The translations under genes and the position numbers were made by a program. Below are positions 4,215 through 13,373 of a DNA stretch of 13,373 bases, piece by piece (position 1 is the stretch's first letter; each line of letters starts with the position of its first letter). The stretch comes from Gemmatimonadota bacterium (GTDB lineage: Bacteria > 4572-55 > J002), in NCBI GenBank assembly GCA_003697105.1, contig RFFQ01000143.1, forward strand, positions 1-13,373, read 5' to 3'. The notes beneath the pieces were generated by a model, which had not been told where the DNA came from, did no database searches, and saw only the letters and a list, made by a program, of their open reading frames with translations.

Positions 4215-7200
4215 ATGCGTAAAGCTCGATTCAATCTGTTAATTCCGGTTTTACTGATGGCGGCTTCTGCCTTCGCGGTGGAGTTTACTAATGGGCGGCA
4301 ATCGATCCAGATGGTGGACGCCAATGGAAACCAACTCCAAAAAACCGTTTTGATTGTTGACGGAATGGAATACCCAATACCGGTAATCTCCCGCAACCCC
4401 CCATCAACCGCAACACATCGCGAAACGGAAATCCTGTGGACTCGCTTTGATGAGGCAGGCATCGCTTCTAACGTGGGGTTATCCGGTGATGGTGAGCTGG
4501 CATTTACGGGCTGGACACTCAACAATCGCCGTTTTGAAGCCTTTTTGACCTTTGGGGATGGCAATCCATTATGGGTAGATTCCGTCCAAACCCATACGGA
4601 CGGCGCTCATTTGCGCTCGTCAACCACCGCCGGTCTCATCATGGGGGCTACGTACAATTATGTAAATCGATATTATACCGACGGGCAAATTGCTTGGACG
4701 TATGACAGTGGGACAGACTATTCCATCGCCGATATGAGTGTCGCCCCCAATGGTGAGTTTACAGCCCTCGCCCTCAATGAAACGGCAAATCTGGAAGATC
4801 ATCGTTTGCTGGTACTGGATGCAGACCAAAATGAACGCTGGCATGTGGATTTAAACGCAGAAGACAATTACCTGATGCAACATGTAGTTATTTCCGCAGA
4901 TAATCAAATTATCGCCTTGACCACTTATACCCGCGTGTATGTGTTTGATGCCGCCTCCGGACAAATTCAATTTGAGACTGATTTTTACGGTCAGACGGCA
5001 CCGGCTATCTCCGCGGACGGTGCGGTATTGGTAACCGGTGATTTCAATGGCTACGCCAATGTATATCTCTGGCGGGATGAAACATACCAGCGATTGTGGC
5101 GATACCGTTTCCGGCGGGATACCGCCCGGACAAATTGGGTCACTGCCGTGGCGGTCTCAGCAGATGGGCAACGAATTGCAGCCGGAACACTCGATTTTAT
5201 CCCGGGAGGCTATCAAGGACAGATCGCGGTTTTCGACACACCAAATCCATACCCGATTTGGACGGACATCCATCAAGGGGATTATGTGGAAGGATTGTGC
5301 TTTAATACGGAGGGGTCACTGTTGGTCGCCGGAAATTGGGGCGAGTATGGTGCTCCTCAAGATCAAATTCGTGTTTACAATGGCGATACAGGAGAACTCT
5401 TTTTCTCGGAGAGCGTCCCCGGTTCCATATTTTCACTGGATCTAGCCGATGATGGGCAGTATGCCATTTTTGGTGGCAAGCATGTTCATGCCCGCGAGTG
5501 GGGGAACGGTGGTGATGTGTACCTGCTGCGACTCGATCCGGGGGGAGGCACAATTCAGGGTACTGCCTACGTACCAAACGGCGAAGACCCTCACGGAATA
5601 ACGATCCAAGTGCTCGGTACCAGCCGGTACACCCAAACTCGGGCGGATGGATCGTTCACCATGCGTTACATCCCGGCAGGGACATGGGATATTCAGGCAA
5701 GCAAACCCGGCTACACCTTTGAATTTCAGCGAGATATAGACGTTGCGGAGAACGACATTATTGAAAATTTAGATTTTGAATTGAGTGTCGTAGAAAACCC
5801 ACCCCAAAATCTATTGGCAACGGATGATGCCTTCCTTGATCACATTCTACTTAGCTGGGAAGACGGAGAGGGACAGTTATCGCCACAACGGCAACAGCAG
5901 ATTCAAACCGTTTTAGGGGTGCACCAACCCCCGGAAAAGAAAATTCAGGCAATGAGGGGTCTCCAACGGGCACAAATTGGCTGGGATCAAACCCGTGAAC
6001 CCTTTCGCGACATCCAAACGCCCCTCTATTATGCGATTTACCGGAGTTCATTGCCCGATGGTCCCTATTTTCTGCTTGATCTCGCGGCGACAACGGAAAC
6101 AACCTATGCGGATTCACTCGATCTCTTTCCACAGACACCATACTATTATCGGGTTACGGCGGTTTATGAGACGGGAGAAAGCCCATATTCCAACGAAGAT
6201 AGCGGTACTCTAAACGACGATTACATTGAATTTGAAATCGAGGTCCCCCTGACCTACACAGTGCCCACCTTTGACGGCATTATCGACACGACAGAGTGGG
6301 CTGATGCGTATGAATTTGACATCACCGATGTGTTCGGTTTTTTTGAAGGACGGCTCGACCCGCCGGGAACGGTCACTGCTAAAATAAAAGTGGATGACGT
6401 GCAGAACCAGCTTTATCTAGCCGTTGCTAATCGAGCAGACCAACACTTGACCGATGGGGATCAGGTGGGATTGTATTTTGATGATAACGGCGATGGTCAT
6501 TATCCCGCACCAGATTGGGATTTGAAAGAAGGGAACTTTTGGGTTCGGCACTACGCCAGTGGAGCAGATTCCGTCCACTTTCGTGCTTGGCATGATCAAG
6601 GATATAATGAAACCATTACACTGCCCATTACTGATGTCGGGATTTCGGATCAAGCCGGATATGTGGCTTATGAGGTTGCCCTCCCACTCGGATTTATGCA
6701 ACCGGAGCAACTTCAGGTGTTTTTGCCGGAACAGATGCCGCGTCTTTGGTTGTTTGTCTCTAACGCGGAAACCGGCGATTTTAATGGATATTGGCCCCAA
6801 CCGGTTGAAAATTGGCGTGATCCCCAAAACTTTGGGCAGATTCATGTCCCGGTGACGTTAGATGCGCCACCACAAGCACCCGGTAACTTAACACTTACCC
6901 CCGTTGGTACAGCTCAATTCCGCCTAACATGGACAGACCCGACCTTGGATCGTGCAAATGCGCCACTGATGAATCTGGAAGGAATTCATATCTTTCGGAA
7001 TTATGATTTATGGCAAACGGTCCCGCCGGGAACGGAATCGGTGATTGATGCGGAGGTGTTGCCCTATCGCTGGTACACATACCAACTGAAGGCATTCAAT
7101 AGTAGCGGGTATTTGAGTCCGTACAGTCCGGCAGTGAGTGACTGGGTCTATCAAGCACCGGAATTTACCGAAATTAGCTACGATGATGGTAGTGCAGAAG

Positions 7201-7943
7201 GGTTTTATGTAGCCAGTTTTAATTTTGATGATAACAAGTTTGCCGTCCGGTGTACACCGGCAGTAGAACCGTCATATATTGGAAAAATAGCGGTGTTTGT
7301 CAGTGATACAACACCGTTTGAGGTCGCAATTTATAGCCACCGCAGTGGACTACCGGATGAGATTATCGCGGGGCCGTATCCTATCCGATTAACAGAAGAC
7401 GGTCCGGGTTGGGCAGAAGCCATCATCCCCGGCGATGATCCGCCGTCAGTGAGCAGTGATTTTTGGGTGGTAATGCACTGGTCAGAAACATCGCCCGGGG
7501 CACCCGGCGTCGGTGGCGACCGGGATCAATTGCGAAACCGGTCTTACTATTACTTAAATTCGGTGGGTTGGCGTGCTTCGACCCAACAAAATTATCTAAT
7601 GCGTGCTTATACCTATACCCAAGACCCCGTTCCGGTCGAACACCCCGCGACGACCGTTTCCACTCCAGAAAAGCCGGCATTCAGCCTCTATCCAAACCCA
7701 TTTAATGCCAATATCGGTTTTTCATTTGCGCTACCGGACGGATCGCCCGTAACTATCTCTATCTACGACATTAAAGGCGCACTTGTCAAAATTCTGGTTG
7801 ACAAGTTTTATCCCTCAGGCTATTATCGGATCAACTGGAGCGGGATGGCGGAAACGGGAGAAACACTACCAAGTGGTATCTATACGGTCATGTTTTCCAC
7901 GCCACACTATCAGCAGCACACCAAAATAATCCTGCTGAAATAA
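4215..7943 (+). CDS. secreted multidomain beta-propeller protein with C-terminal (T9SS-type) sorting domain
   Basis: The 1242-residue product begins with a signal peptide cut after ASAFA (about residue 21). Residues 70-440 hold about seven beta-propeller blades, recognisable by recurring phrases such as SADGQRIAAG and IRVYNGDTGEL. Then come a carboxypeptidase regulatory-like domain (about 442-523), a fibronectin type III domain interrupted by a polar Q/R-rich insertion (about 529-665, insertion near 549-605), and a CBM9/DOMON-like domain (about 682-875, starting FDGIIDTTEWADAYEF). A second FN3 (about 883-978) and a beta-sandwich (about 982-1134) follow. The last 87 residues (1156-1242) begin FSLYPNPFN and end in a short basic stretch, matching the FlgD-Ig-like/type A sorting domain that directs export to the cell surface by type IX secretion. 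No catalytic motif was recognised, so carbohydrate or protein binding at the surface is inferred. AAGAGG lies 7 bases before the start. It follows the phosphatase by 37 bases and precedes the receiver by 10. Confidence 0.9.
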   Translation: MRKARFNLLIPVLLMAASAFAVEFTNGRQSIQMVDANGNQLQKTVLIVDGMEYPIPVISRNPPSTATHRETEILWTRFDEAGIASNVGLSGDGELAFTGWTLNNRRFEAFLTFGDGNPLWVDSVQTHTDGAHLRSSTTAGLIMGATYNYVNRYYTDGQIAWTYDSGTDYSIADMSVAPNGEFTALALNETANLEDHRLLVLDADQNERWHVDLNAEDNYLMQHVVISADNQIIALTTYTRVYVFDAASGQIQFETDFYGQTAPAISADGAVLVTGDFNGYANVYLWRDETYQRLWRYRFRRDTARTNWVTAVAVSADGQRIAAGTLDFIPGGYQGQIAVFDTPNPYPIWTDIHQGDYVEGLCFNTEGSLLVAGNWGEYGAPQDQIRVYNGDTGELFFSESVPGSIFSLDLADDGQYAIFGGKHVHAREWGNGGDVYLLRLDPGGGTIQGTAYVPNGEDPHGITIQVLGTSRYTQTRADGSFTMRYIPAGTWDIQASKPGYTFEFQRDIDVAENDIIENLDFELSVVENPPQNLLATDDAFLDHILLSWEDGEGQLSPQRQQQIQTVLGVHQPPEKKIQAMRGLQRAQIGWDQTREPFRDIQTPLYYAIYRSSLPDGPYFLLDLAATTETTYADSLDLFPQTPYYYRVTAVYETGESPYSNEDSGTLNDDYIEFEIEVPLTYTVPTFDGIIDTTEWADAYEFDITDVFGFFEGRLDPPGTVTAKIKVDDVQNQLYLAVANRADQHLTDGDQVGLYFDDNGDGHYPAPDWDLKEGNFWVRHYASGADSVHFRAWHDQGYNETITLPITDVGISDQAGYVAYEVALPLGFMQPEQLQVFLPEQMPRLWLFVSNAETGDFNGYWPQPVENWRDPQNFGQIHVPVTLDAPPQAPGNLTLTPVGTAQFRLTWTDPTLDRANAPLMNLEGIHIFRNYDLWQTVPPGTESVIDAEVLPYRWYTYQLKAFNSSGYLSPYSPAVSDWVYQAPEFTEISYDDGSAEGFYVASFNFDDNKFAVRCTPAVEPSYIGKIAVFVSDTTPFEVAIYSHRSGLPDEIIAGPYPIRLTEDGPGWAEAIIPGDDPPSVSSDFWVVMHWSETSPGAPGVGGDRDQLRNRSYYYLNSVGWRASTQQNYLMRAYTYTQDPVPVEHPATTVSTPEKPAFSLYPNPFNANIGFSFALPDGSPVTISIYDIKGALVKILVDKFYPSGYYRINWSGMAETGETLPSGIYTVMFSTPHYQQHTKIILLK

Positions 7944-8421: not shown

Positions 8422-9150
8422 TTAGCCTTCTAACTTCGCGATCTGGTTGTTAGCAAAGTCTCGATAGTCTCCCGGTTGTTCATGCAGTGATGCTTTAAAT
8501 TGATTAAGGGCTTCAACGGGTTGGTTTAATTTAAGGTAAATTTTGCCTAACATAATCCGGGCATGTTCGCGCTTATTACTCTCATCAAATGAATCCAACA
8601 AATGTTCAAAAACGGTAATGGCTTGATTATACTCGCCCATCAGAAAGTACCCCACTCCGACCCAATAATGGCAATTATCGGTTAAATCAGTATTTGGGTA
8701 ATCCGTTGCCAGTTGGGTAAACAGGGCAATAGCTTCCGTCCGGTCACCATCTTTCATCAATTGGCGTGCTCGATCATATTCCGCTTTCATTTCGCTAGGG
8801 GCACGATTGAGTATCCCCCCGGGCGCTGATGGGGGTAACACAATGGTATCCTCTTTTTGTGGGGCGGTCAACTGCGTAATGCGCTCTTCTATGGACGTTA
8901 AATCCGCTTCCAACATCGAAATCTGCTGGACGATTTGCGCATTCTGATTTTGCAATTGATTTACCCGGTCATTCGAAGATGTCACAGCGGTATTTAGCCG
9001 GTTGACTCGCTGATCCAGATCGGTCAATGCCGTGGCAATATCCCGATCCGTCAAGCTACCCCGATCGGTTTTGGAGGCGGCACAACCGGTAAGCAAGAAA
9101 AGACCTGTTAGGGCAAGACAGGCGTATGCAAACCATCGATGAAGTTTCAT
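8422..9150 (-). CDS. CpoB/YbgF-like lipoprotein with coiled coil and TPR repeats
   Basis: The 242-residue product starts with a lipoprotein signal: hydrophobic residues 8-20 and lipobox LTGC, giving lipidated C23. The residue after the cysteine is alanine, not the aspartate that retains lipoproteins in the inner membrane of E. coli. A heptad-rich coiled coil (about 36-95) and a proline-containing linker (about 100-113) follow. Three TPR-like units sit at about 121-154, 157-190 and 195-228 (for example YPNTDL, MGEYNQAITVF). This order of coiled coil then TPRs matches CpoB/YbgF, a periplasmic protein that in E. coli links the Tol-Pal system and peptidoglycan synthesis during constriction. E. 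coli CpoB is not a lipoprotein, and no tol or pal gene is present, so the role is inferred. AAGGAG lies 9 bases upstream of the ATG. The gene follows the caspase-like gene by 20 bases and is probably translated from the same transcript. Confidence 0.85.
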   Translation of the reverse strand: MKLHRWFAYACLALTGLFLLTGCAASKTDRGSLTDRDIATALTDLDQRVNRLNTAVTSSNDRVNQLQNQNAQIVQQISMLEADLTSIEERITQLTAPQKEDTIVLPPSAPGGILNRAPSEMKAEYDRARQLMKDGDRTEAIALFTQLATDYPNTDLTDNCHYWVGVGYFLMGEYNQAITVFEHLLDSFDESNKREHARIMLGKIYLKLNQPVEALNQFKASLHEQPGDYRDFANNQIAKLEG

Positions 9151-9170: not shown

Positions 9171-10361
9171 TTAACGTTGAAGATTAACATAAACATCATG
9201 GACTCGACCGGGTTCAATTCTAACAGTTATTATCTCCGGTTCATACCCCTCCCGAAAAATATGAATCCCATGCTCTCCCGGGGGAAGCTTGTACTTCAGG
9301 GGGGAACTCCCTGCAATAATACCATCGACTCGAACAGTAGCTCCGGGAGGGTTGGTTTTGACCACCAAGTCACCGACTTCTACACTGCTTGTTTCATCGG
9401 GATAATCTCTTAAATCATATAACCGGGGCCATAAACCATTATCCGAGATTTTCGGTTGTGGTGGTGTCAAACCTGAGGAGCTAGGAGCCATTTGATATGG
9501 CTGAGATTGCCGCTCAAAACCGGTAAAAAAAACCGGCTGGTCTGAGCCACGAATTAAAATTGGTTTTTGTGGATGCCCAGCTTGTGCCATGCTATATTGC
9601 ACATATGTGGATAACTCCACAACATCAATTTGTCCGGATCCCGGACGTTGTGGGAGATCGGCTTTTCCCCGTAACCCTTGCACTAAGAAATAGGTAAACA
9701 TACCATGCTTCAAAGTATGTGATTCTTTTGAAACCTGATTGGCTTCACAGGACAATAAATAGGTGACATTCGGTTTAGAGGCGTTTAAGTTATCTGCCTC
9801 AAACGGGTCGGCTACCGGTAGAACGTTTGTAATTCCGCCACTATAGCAGGCATCAATAATCACGACCGTCTCTGCAGATGGAATCTCAGCCACCCGTTTG
9901 GTAAATTCGGTATACGGAATATCATTCGTCGAAACGAGTTGATCTGCATCATACGGTAAAAGTCCATTGAGAAATTTGCGCTCATAATCCGGGTCATAAA
10001 CCACCGTGCCATGACCACTGAAAAAGATGATCACCGTATCATTTTGTTTCACAGAGCGTTTCAACCGCTCCAAGGCGGCATAAATATTGTCCTTTGTGGC
10101 AGATTGGTTAATCAGTTTTAATACACGGGAATCCGGTAAAGAATGATTAAGCCGCCTTAATTCTTGTAGAAAGACCAAGGCATCGCGGTGAGCATAACTT
10201 AAACGAAATGTGGGGGCCTCATAATTTGAAATGCCTATAGAGAGAACCCACAGTTGAGGTTGGGAACCCACGCTCCCAGATGCAAACACCTGGGGGGATC
10301 CCCCGACCATTAAAATAAAAAACACGATAATAATATAAGTTGTAGCGCCTCTTTGCATCAT
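9171..10361 (-). CDS. secreted caspase-like (peptidase C14) protein with C-terminal PEGA domain
   Basis: I place the start at 10361 (396 residues). GGAGGGG lies just upstream of this ATG, at 10367-10373. The longer frame opens with TTG at 10382 and would encode the Shine-Dalgarno itself. The protein begins with an export signal: R4, then a hydrophobic run (about 8-20), with probable cleavage after VFA (27). A caspase-fold domain spans about 34-281, with the catalytic dyad visible as H117 in SGHG (115-118) and C172 in IIDACYSGG. A proline/serine-rich linker (about 285-328) leads to a PEGA domain (about 330-396; NPPGATVRVDG, then LPPGEHGIHI), a beta-sandwich associated with extracytoplasmic or S-layer-linked proteins. 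Both catalytic residues are intact, so protease activity is likely; substrate unknown. Bacterial caspase homologues usually cut after basic residues, which is family knowledge rather than something seen here. It lies 20 bases from the downstream lipoprotein gene. Confidence 0.92.
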   Translation of the reverse strand: MMQRGATTYIIIVFFILMVGGSPQVFASGSVGSQPQLWVLSIGISNYEAPTFRLSYAHRDALVFLQELRRLNHSLPDSRVLKLINQSATKDNIYAALERLKRSVKQNDTVIIFFSGHGTVVYDPDYERKFLNGLLPYDADQLVSTNDIPYTEFTKRVAEIPSAETVVIIDACYSGGITNVLPVADPFEADNLNASKPNVTYLLSCEANQVSKESHTLKHGMFTYFLVQGLRGKADLPQRPGSGQIDVVELSTYVQYSMAQAGHPQKPILIRGSDQPVFFTGFERQSQPYQMAPSSSGLTPPQPKISDNGLWPRLYDLRDYPDETSSVEVGDLVVKTNPPGATVRVDGIIAGSSPLKYKLPPGEHGIHIFREGYEPEIITVRIEPGRVHDVYVNLQR

Positions 10362-10366
10362 ACTGA

Positions 10367-10373
10367 CCCCTCC
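10367..10373 (-). promoter_or_regulatory. Shine-Dalgarno that fixes the caspase-like gene start
   Basis: On the minus strand GGAGGGG stands at 10373-10367, with its GGAGG core 7 bases before the tandem ATG ATG at 10361-10356. This spacing is ideal and argues that translation starts at 10361, not at the TTG at 10382. Confidence 0.8.
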
Positions 10374-10382
10374 GAAAGCCAA

Positions 10383-10526: not shown

Positions 10527-13373
10527 TTAGGGGTAAAGCGGTAACTTCTGGCACCGGCTTGGTGTGTCAGAATTTGTTGTTGTACGATTACCACCATAAC
10601 TCCGCTCATATCGACTACGAGACGAACGTGCTTCTGCCGCATTATCCGGGCGAAGCGTTATTTCAATTAACCATGACGGCGAGCGATTACTCAGGGTGAC
10701 TTCTAGACAGTCTTCCCCAGATAAGATTCGATTACCGAATGTATCATACACGAAGAGTCGATATGTTGTCAAGTTTAAATTAGAAAAAACAACCTCACCT
10801 TTGTCATCCGTGAATTTAATCGATTGATATTCAAACGGGGGATTCTCTCCATCGGTCAATTCAACTCGATATTTTTCCGGTTTCAATTCGGGTTTATCCT
10901 CTAGGTTGATCCGCAACACAATCCGGCGAGGGTCTTCCGGTTTCGGTTTCTCGCAGGTATTAAACCGGACAGCTTGGTGAGGAAAGGTTTCCGTGAGCGC
11001 AACCGTCACGGAATCACCCAGAAGTTTGCTAACATTTGCCTGTTCCACATTATTGGAATATAACGTCACAGCATAAACACCCAGATCAAGACCTTCAAAT
11101 TTCAGGTTAGCACGACGGGGCGAACTGCTACGGTTGTCACTGGCATCCGAAGTTTTCACTTTTTTTGTGCTCTGATTTGTAATTACCACGCGATATTCAC
11201 CTATATTCTGGCAATCTTCGATCATCACCATCAACGAACCTTTGGTCTGTTGGCTCGGACAATCGATCTTGACATCCCGCCAAGCGACTGGTAACAATTC
11301 GGAGAGGGTTACATCGATACACTCAAATTTTTCTACATACCGGTACGGGTCATCGATTGCCAAATACACTCGCAGACAGTAATTTCCAAACTCCAGATTA
11401 GGGAAACGGAATTTAAAGTTATCGGAATTTCCGGTCGTATCCGAAGCCACCAATTTATTATCCTTAATCAGGTCAACAATATAAATTTCAGTGTCACGAC
11501 ACGGTTTTTGAATTTTTCCGGCGATCTCCCCACCTTTTTTCACAGGTTTATCACACACTTCAACTTCAACTTCGGTGCGTACCGCATCAACCGCAACATT
11601 GATCGATTTATCCAGTAGTTTCAGGCGGCTTTCATCGGCATAGACCTCAACCCGATACACACTCTTTTCCAAATTTGTAAAGGTCATCCGAAAGGCGCTA
11701 CCCCCAGACAATACATCCCCATCTAAACGGACACTACCCGGGGCACTACTGCTTGCCTTGATGTTATCGACGGTATGGCTGTTTCGCAGGTTGACCAATC
11801 GAATATAAAATGGGGCGGCACACTTACCGGCATTGCGAGATTTGACCGTTACTTCCAAATCACCAACATCTTTTTTCTTTTTTTCACCACAAATGGCAAG
11901 GGTCATAATTTTGTTCAGACTTAACTCCGAAATCTCGATCTGATGTTCCCCCTGAATAAATTTATCCGTAAAGGGGTCTGCGTATGCTTCTACCCGATAG
12001 CGATCAATGGATAATTTTTCAAAGAACACTCGCCCATCATCGTCGGTTACTTTGGTATAAATCTGACTCGCCGGATTAGAAGCCCCTCGCAAGGTGATCT
12101 TAAAAGGTGCTTTATAAGAGCCATCTGGGCAGGTAACCGTCAATTGAAGTGTTCCGGTTTTTGGCGCCTTTTTCTCGGCGCCAACCTCATACGTCTTCCG
12201 AATATGCGGGTCTAGCTCCGAAACCGTGAGCGTATAATCCGAACTCAACAGCCGCCCATCGGGCAACGTACCTTCATAGATGTAAACATAATAGACATCA
12301 AAACCAACATTATCAAAAAAGACATCGCCGTATTTGTTAGTTGGCTGTTTGTAACGGAAATTTTGGGTATTAGAGCGGCTCAATAATGCCACCTCAAAGG
12401 GAGGTTTGGCATCTCCTTTACCTTTAACCGAGATAAACACCGAGCCAAACTTAGGCTTGTTACCATTATCATCACGGGTCGTTGCCGGTTGGGGACAACA
12501 AGCATTGTTCAAATCCTTAATGACACGAGTGGGATTCGGGAAAAGCTCGCTAATCCGCACCGCAATCGGTTTATCACAGCAAACCTGCTCCATTGGTGAG
12601 GAATAAACTTGTAGCGTATAATCCCCGTAGGGCAAATCTTCAAACCGGAATGTGCCATGATTTGTCCAACGGTAATATCGCTTTTTCGTTTCCGAATTAA
12701 CTAATTCCAGCCGATAAATCTTCTCGGTACAGGTAGGGCAACTCGCATCATCTACCGAACACACAATACGTCCATCAAAGGTACCTTTGGGGATAGAAGC
12801 GGGATCGACCTCTTCTACAGGTTTTTCAGCGGGGGCAGATAAGCTGATTTGAATCACCCGTTCTGGAAATAATTTGGTTAAGGTTACCTGGATATCATCT
12901 TTTAAAATTTCGTGGGAACCCGGCTCGAGGACGGTGATTTGGTATGTTCCCAACGGTAGGTCTGAAAAGGAAACTTGACCGAAGGAATCAGTATGATTAA
13001 TGATTTTTTTCCTGTTTTCAGAAACAAGCATTACTATGTACGTATTCAGGGCATCCGTCGCTCCTTCCCTTGTAACACGAATCTCCAAACGTCCTTCTTC
13101 TGTTTTCGGTTCGGGTTGTTTTTCTGGAACCGCTTCCAACGGGATTGCTACGCGACGGTATTCCGCATCTAACGCCACCCCTACTCCTTCTTTGATAACT
13201 TTTCCAGATGAAATATCCCGCACGACAACTTCGTAGTTATCATACGGCACGTTCTCAAAGGTGACAATGCCGGTGTTAGGGTTGGTGGATTGAATCTGTT
13301 GATATTGTCTGCTTTTGAGCACGACCGAGAAGAAGTTCTGTGGTGAGTTAGCGCGTACCACCTGAACCTCAAC
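10527..13373 (-). CDS. large tandem beta-sandwich (Cna-B/SpaA-like) repeat protein, 5' end beyond window
   Basis: Partial gene: the frame stays open to the right edge (V-E-V-Q precede the apparent GTG start at 13361), so the true start lies outside and 948 residues are visible. Counting from the edge, nine repeat units of about 80-105 residues cover roughly 1-81, 93-182, 196-296, 309-396, 406-496, 504-608, 613-706, 712-808 and 817-907. Each has F-x2-[LV]-x4-Y (for example FSDLPLGTY, FEDLPYGDY) followed by a strand, and most then have a [VI]-[ST]-E-L-x-P-like segment. This is the layout of Cna-B, SpaA or carboxypeptidase-regulatory folds, usually stalk or scaffold domains. Nineteen cysteines suggest disulfides and therefore an extracytoplasmic location; no signal peptide can be seen because the N-terminus is missing. 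The tail (908-948) is rich in R, S, N and T with a last cysteine at 941 and no known sorting motif. Function unknown; a surface or periplasmic scaffold is inferred. It lies upstream of the caspase-like gene. Confidence 0.85.
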   Translation of the reverse strand, partial: VEVQVVRANSPQNFFSVVLKSRQYQQIQSTNPNTGIVTFENVPYDNYEVVVRDISSGKVIKEGVGVALDAEYRRVAIPLEAVPEKQPEPKTEEGRLEIRVTREGATDALNTYIVMLVSENRKKIINHTDSFGQVSFSDLPLGTYQITVLEPGSHEILKDDIQVTLTKLFPERVIQISLSAPAEKPVEEVDPASIPKGTFDGRIVCSVDDASCPTCTEKIYRLELVNSETKKRYYRWTNHGTFRFEDLPYGDYTLQVYSSPMEQVCCDKPIAVRISELFPNPTRVIKDLNNACCPQPATTRDDNGNKPKFGSVFISVKGKGDAKPPFEVALLSRSNTQNFRYKQPTNKYGDVFFDNVGFDVYYVYIYEGTLPDGRLLSSDYTLTVSELDPHIRKTYEVGAEKKAPKTGTLQLTVTCPDGSYKAPFKITLRGASNPASQIYTKVTDDDGRVFFEKLSIDRYRVEAYADPFTDKFIQGEHQIEISELSLNKIMTLAICGEKKKKDVGDLEVTVKSRNAGKCAAPFYIRLVNLRNSHTVDNIKASSSAPGSVRLDGDVLSGGSAFRMTFTNLEKSVYRVEVYADESRLKLLDKSINVAVDAVRTEVEVEVCDKPVKKGGEIAGKIQKPCRDTEIYIVDLIKDNKLVASDTTGNSDNFKFRFPNLEFGNYCLRVYLAIDDPYRYVEKFECIDVTLSELLPVAWRDVKIDCPSQQTKGSLMVMIEDCQNIGEYRVVITNQSTKKVKTSDASDNRSSSPRRANLKFEGLDLGVYAVTLYSNNVEQANVSKLLGDSVTVALTETFPHQAVRFNTCEKPKPEDPRRIVLRINLEDKPELKPEKYRVELTDGENPPFEYQSIKFTDDKGEVVFSNLNLTTYRLFVYDTFGNRILSGEDCLEVTLSNRSPSWLIEITLRPDNAAEARSSRSRYERSYGGNRTTTNSDTPSRCQKLPLYP
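10653..13373 (-). repeat. nine tandem protein-domain repeats, diverged
   Basis: The repeat units described for the tandem-domain protein occupy this stretch. They are diverged at the amino-acid level, sharing chiefly the F-x2-[LV]-x4-Y core, so no long DNA identity is apparent and recent duplication is unlikely. Unit 6 (about 504-608) carries an extra G/S-rich insertion before the core motif. Unit 7 has two additional cysteines (666 and 685) on what should be neighbouring strands. Confidence 0.75.

Follow-up and report, generated by a model that had tools for sequence, protein, structure and literature searches.

Residue-level analysis of the tandem-repeat gene at one end of the window (the whole 13,373-bp stretch, which is one complete contig, C19, of a 4.18-Mb genome in 199 contigs that is 97% complete) revealed that cysteines lying just past the first strand (A) and the last strand (G) of its SpaA/Cna-B-like units are present or absent in concert, in this genome and in a relative. 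We propose, with a probability of roughly 0.6, that the gene product is a stalk of such units, some of which are clamped by an A-to-G cysteine cross-link. An earlier note on this DNA had described end cysteines that come and go in pairs and had attributed them to a disulfide tying the first and last strands; the observation was confirmed, and the interpretation is partly supported.

The gene lies on the minus strand at positions 10527–13373 (ORF 13373..10527) and encodes 948 aa; the frame has an open 5' end and stops at 10527. Residue 1 corresponds to the codon at 13373–13371, and window coordinates run opposite to the protein. Because contig C19 ends at 13373, the frame has no start codon, the N-terminus is missing, unit 1 is incomplete, and the true array must be longer than the nine units of this C-terminal part. 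Its extent had earlier been given as 10653–13373, which falls short of the stop and does not register the truncation at the contig end. All nine F-x2-[LV]-x4-Y anchors described for the repeats were found (aa 39, 136, 244, 353, 451, 565, 657, 759, and 863). The protein contains 19 cysteines (205, 212, 215, 265, 266, 292, 293, 415, 495, 518, 607, 625, 666, 685, 705, 721, 807, 889, and 941); every one named in the earlier note was at its given residue, while C666, C685, C889, and C941 had gone unmentioned there.

Units 1 (aa 1–82, 13128–13373, start missing), 2 (aa 92–182, 12828–13100), and 4 (aa 306–395, 12189–12458) are cysteine-free, and unit 9 (aa 818–914, 10632–10922) carries a lone C889 with neither an A-end nor a G-end cysteine, so the residue listing bears out the description of these four units as lacking both end cysteines. 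Unit 3 (aa 195–303, 12465–12791) does have seven cysteines, as had been reported: in its AlphaFold2 model (m8924cdaf9116, pLDDT 80.8), C205 is placed in strand A, C212 and C215 in the A-B loop, C265 and C266 in the E-F loop, and C292 and C293 past strand G. This unit may be a specialised module, as had been suggested. In the model of units 5–8, the two end cysteines follow strands A and G by +1 and +2 residues in unit 5 (C415 and C495; aa 403–500, 11874–12167), by +6 and +1 in unit 6 (C518 and C607; aa 503–612, 11538–11867), by +3 and +3 in unit 7 (C625 and C705; aa 613–710, 11244–11537), and by +2 and +2 in unit 8 (C721 and C807; aa 711–812, 10938–11243). Unit 7 has the additional C666 and C685, a possible second pair. 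All of these features are on the minus strand, as is the short Ser/Arg-rich tail with C941 (10527–10631, from the translation). The protein ends in SDTPSRCQKLPLYP, where no LPXTG with a hydrophobic tail is present; profile searches gave no match to a sortase-signal family, and no T9SS-type sorting tail was seen in the translated tail or by these searches.

Directly downstream on the same strand is a gene for a caspase-like peptidase (9171–10382; Peptidase_C14, with SGHG and DACYSG motifs) with a signal-like N-terminus and a C-terminal PEGA domain, followed after 20 bp by a gene for a YbgF/CpoB-like TPR lipoprotein (8422–9150). The array gene and these two genes possibly form one transcription unit. 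The window also encodes, on the plus strand (4215–7943), a 1242-aa exported protein with a beta-propeller-like region, fn3 and CarboxypepD_reg domains, and a T9SS type A-like sorting tail (TIGR04183, above cut-off).

The array units have the SpaA/Cna-B prealbumin-like (transthyretin-like) fold. Pfam searches with the 948-aa protein matched SpaA (PF17802; 9.6e-19, 67.8 bits versus a cut-off of 23.1), CarboxypepD_reg (PF13620; 9e-15), and SdrD_B (PF17210; 4e-8), the latter two likewise above their curated cut-offs, and a profile of 51 units matched SdrD, streptococcal pilins, and NOMO/NOMO2 in the PDB. The AlphaFold2 model of units 5–8 was built from 13 sequences and had a mean pLDDT of 71, with unit 5 mostly between 71 and 91 and unit 6 weak; its unit 5 aligned with the CnaB2 domain 8bdw over 90 of 95 residues (Z 10.4, rmsd 2.9). 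Unit 3 was modelled with seven strands from 50 sequences, and its PDB matches were weaker than those of unit 5 (best Z 9.3). The Cna-B-like fold suggested previously is thus upheld, whereas the idea of a distinct repeat family was rejected because all three Pfam families match above cut-off.

The missing beginning of the gene is probably on contig C53 of the same genome, which ends in a 3'-open frame with eight units of the same repeat family, preceded by a lipoprotein signal (lipobox VASC). The C53 frame is cut off at its end and the C19 frame at its start, in each case exactly at a contig edge, and the source genome has no further strong array locus; we therefore infer that the two frames probably form one gene of at least ~1,750 aa and 17 units, although comparison of the C53 and C19 ends revealed no exact or approximate sequence overlap. 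Given this probable half, the array is probably an envelope-anchored lipoprotein stalk, in agreement with the extracellular stalk that had been envisaged. At one unit junction of the C53 frame (L004:6402–6680), four cysteines (C674, C705, C718, and C766 of that frame) fall together and could form two disulfides or a possible metal site. The same contig encodes a 1360-aa surface protein with a different repeat (L156:15320–19399) and regularly spaced cysteine pairs, 48 residues apart (C785/C833, C904/C952, and C1021/C1069) or 8 residues apart (C981/C989 and C1098/C1106).

The relative, Candidatus Cloacimonetes bacterium 4572_55, was the only other genome of the phylum compared and belongs to a different family from the source genome. 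Its array of about 35 units is spread over two overlapping frames (2489 and 1013 aa), and the former is also interrupted by a contig end. The overlap (L018:7430–7480) resembles a one-base slip, either real or an assembly error, and since the frames meet there, they are probably one gene. A search of 84,980 species genomes with the window protein found no relative, and the same search with the relative's protein matched that relative alone. With the unit profile at 1e-14, matches among 145 diverse genomes were confined to the source genome and the relative; other proteins of these two genomes gave weaker, general matches to the same fold.

To quantify the pairing, we used an iterated profile to delimit 51 full units from the two genomes and located all their cysteines, defining the A-end as profile positions 8–13 and the G-end as the stretch just past the last strand. 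Both cysteines were present in 12 units and neither in 37, with one unit having the A-end cysteine only (GA_40) and one the G-end cysteine only (C53_627) (Fisher p=1e-9, common descent ignored). The pairing also held in the relative alone, whose sequence had not been available to the earlier note (7 both, 1 A-end only, 0 G-end only, and 27 neither; p=1e-6, common descent ignored); with the windows fixed from units 5–8, the counts were 6, 2, 0, and 27, respectively (p=2e-5, descent ignored). The nine units of the window divide into five with both cysteines and four without either, an outcome expected once in 126 by exact count. Frequent loss of one pair member alone, which had been named as the pattern that would count against the pairing, was not found.

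Across the 51 units, no other pair of regions showed comparable co-occurrence, with one exception. A cysteine two residues before strand A accompanied the cysteine of an F-x2-L-x-C-G-x-Y motif, with both present in 10 units, one alone in 4 and 1, and neither in 36 (p=8e-7, descent ignored). This second pair is found mainly in the relative and scarcely overlaps the A-G pair, and its members have been lost alone in the close copies GB_22 and GA_2412. Nine units of the relative (L018:5020–8720) combine C-x-G-K at the strand A start with F-x2-L-x-C-G-x-Y.

In the CnaB fold, strand A lies next to strand G and parallel to it (PMC5311914; PMC12617251), which brings both strand ends to one pole. Classical CnaB domains tie these strands with a Lys-Asn isopeptide bond, and axial force thereby bypasses the rest of the domain (PMC5311914). 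The catalytic Glu of that bond corresponds to column 55 of our profile (strand E, four residues after the core Tyr), which is V, I, L, M, A, or F in 51 of 51 units; in the solved GBS52 domain 3phs, the aligned residue is Glu. Lys, tabulated for strand A only, occurs at columns 6 and 8 in only about a fifth of units. With Glu missing from all 51 units, the usual Lys-Asn clamp is not expected, and an isopeptide clamp was rejected for these arrays.

Two cysteines placed beyond the ends of strands A and G would serve the same purpose. Under our proposal, the gene product would be a long envelope-anchored stalk of SpaA/Cna-B-type beta-sandwich units arranged head to tail. Some of these units would hold the cysteines that follow strands A and G opposite one another at the C-terminal pole, where the two would be cross-linked within the domain, most likely as a disulfide. 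The strands tied in this way would be those that the Lys-Asn isopeptide joins in related Gram-positive pilin domains. Pulling force would then pass from strand A through the S-S bond to the exit, bypassing strands B–F, so that clamped units would resist unfolding while cysteine-free units could still extend. We infer both the thiol oxidation and the load-bearing role; a disulfide between the A-end and G-end cysteines is likely but unproven, in a lineage where it would not be expected.

Two results from these genomes count against a simple disulfide and give some weight to a different chemistry, in which the paired cysteines are near in space but act as thiols, binding metal or sulfur species either alone or together with the near-pole cysteines of the next unit. 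No recognised oxidative folding pathway was found: profiles for DsbB, VKOR, DSBA, and Thioredoxin_4 had no match in the source genome or the relative, whereas 6, 3, 8, and 9 of 14 control genomes, respectively, were positive. Many Thioredoxin_2 matches were obtained, but these were not counted as oxidases because the family is too general, and the Evr1/Alr oxidase profile matched no control genome, so that search was uninformative. Nor did exported proteins show an excess of even cysteine counts: 25 were even and 30 odd in the source genome (45% even) and 15 and 28 in the relative (35%), compared with 18 and 4 in E. coli under the same script (82%; Fisher p=0.0007), in small samples chosen by a simple signal-peptide rule. 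The relative belongs to a MAG series from anoxic marine sediment, which was also counted in favour of thiols, and some clusters resemble metal sites, including CPTC, CC, and CC in unit 3 and C-N-K-V-C in the last unit of the relative, as well as the cysteines that converge at the C53 junction. However, units 5–8 each have two lone cysteines, too few for a usual metal site, and inspection showed no pattern of His/Asp partners. We consider this thiol-based explanation unlikely.

The lack of disulfide signs in the genome is also to be weighed against the regularly paired cysteines of the 1360-aa protein on C53. According to one study (PMC12453122), bacteria with an even-cysteine bias generally possess DsbA and DsbB or VKOR, but in some anaerobes a small number of disulfides are produced by other oxidases, for example an AhpC/TSA-type protein. 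We read the data to mean that the paired cysteines of certain long surface repeat proteins in this genome may oxidise after export, in an envelope that overall does not rely on disulfides. A broader reading, which we put forward tentatively as a possibility short of an even chance, is that a little-known phylum without recognised disulfide enzymes builds very long stalks (at least 17 units here and about 35 in the relative) whose units have one of two alternative staples, one joining first and last strands at one pole and one linking the beginning of strand A with the FxxLxC loop at the opposite pole. If true, this would imply an unknown or non-enzymatic route of extracellular cross-linking, and clamped stretches of the stalk would alternate with stretches able to extend.

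Pairing could also reflect descent, the cysteine-bearing units having been copied from a few founders so that the pair is structurally meaningless. Units within an array are indeed mutual duplicates, with neighbours alike (GA_1288, 1392, and 1494; window units 5–8), and the unit tree, built with cysteines masked, was poorly resolved. However, the cysteine-bearing units of the window are only about 15–27% identical to unit 6, and at such identity the joint survival of two unselected cysteines is hardly expected. On the tree, the A-end trait required at least 10 changes and the G-end trait 8. Along well-supported branches, both traits changed in the same direction in 2.4 of 3 independent comparisons and in none did they diverge, a trend in the expected direction but with too few cases for significance. 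The supported sisters GB_427 (both) and GA_1589 (neither) differ at both positions together, GA_1000 (both) is nested in a supported clade in which most of the other units have neither, and the A-G pattern recurs in two genomes from different families. Pairing by descent appears improbable. Cross-linking between neighbouring units or separate stalks, which would give partners to the lone C889 and C941 and to the CC pairs, is very improbable, since the co-occurrence is within units and units 5–8 each have exactly one A-end and one G-end cysteine, placed by the model at the same pole.

The proposed intradomain A-to-G clamp has parallels in known systems. The textbook way for bacterial pilus domains to withstand pulling is a covalent clamp from first to last strand, the known examples being mainly isopeptide bonds. 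Like the Gram-positive CnaB/SpaA pilins SpaA, BcpA, RrgB, and FctB, which are clamped between these very strands, the array has tandem units with a transthyretin-like seven-strand sandwich, a GxFxFxxLxxGxY core, and strand A adjacent and parallel to G. Unlike them, it lacks the catalytic Glu, in whose stead two cysteines lie beyond the strand ends; it has no LPXTG or sortase signal, and its probable N-terminal half bears a lipoprotein anchor. Closest in sequence, among PDB and Pfam entries, are the SdrD B domains and the NOMO/EMC7 prealbumin-like repeats. Actinomyces FimP/FimA and the Mobiluncus giant adhesin also string such folds in tandem and contain intradomain disulfides, but in the two reports (PMC3485203, PMC10619420) these bonds lie elsewhere (loop ends of strands 1–2, sheet to hairpin, and strands 2 and 5), mostly beside isopeptide bonds, and none of those quoted links the first and last strand ends. 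No disulfide between the first and last strands of CnaB repeats was described in the part of the literature covered. Several SpaA-type families commonly contain disulfides (PMC12617251), so the chemistry as such is not new. A clamp of this kind in a lineage without the usual oxidases would raise the question of how such bonds form in anaerobes, and a natural cysteine clamp on the same strands as the isopeptide bond, gained and lost pairwise along one protein, would provide a comparison set for clamp mechanics.
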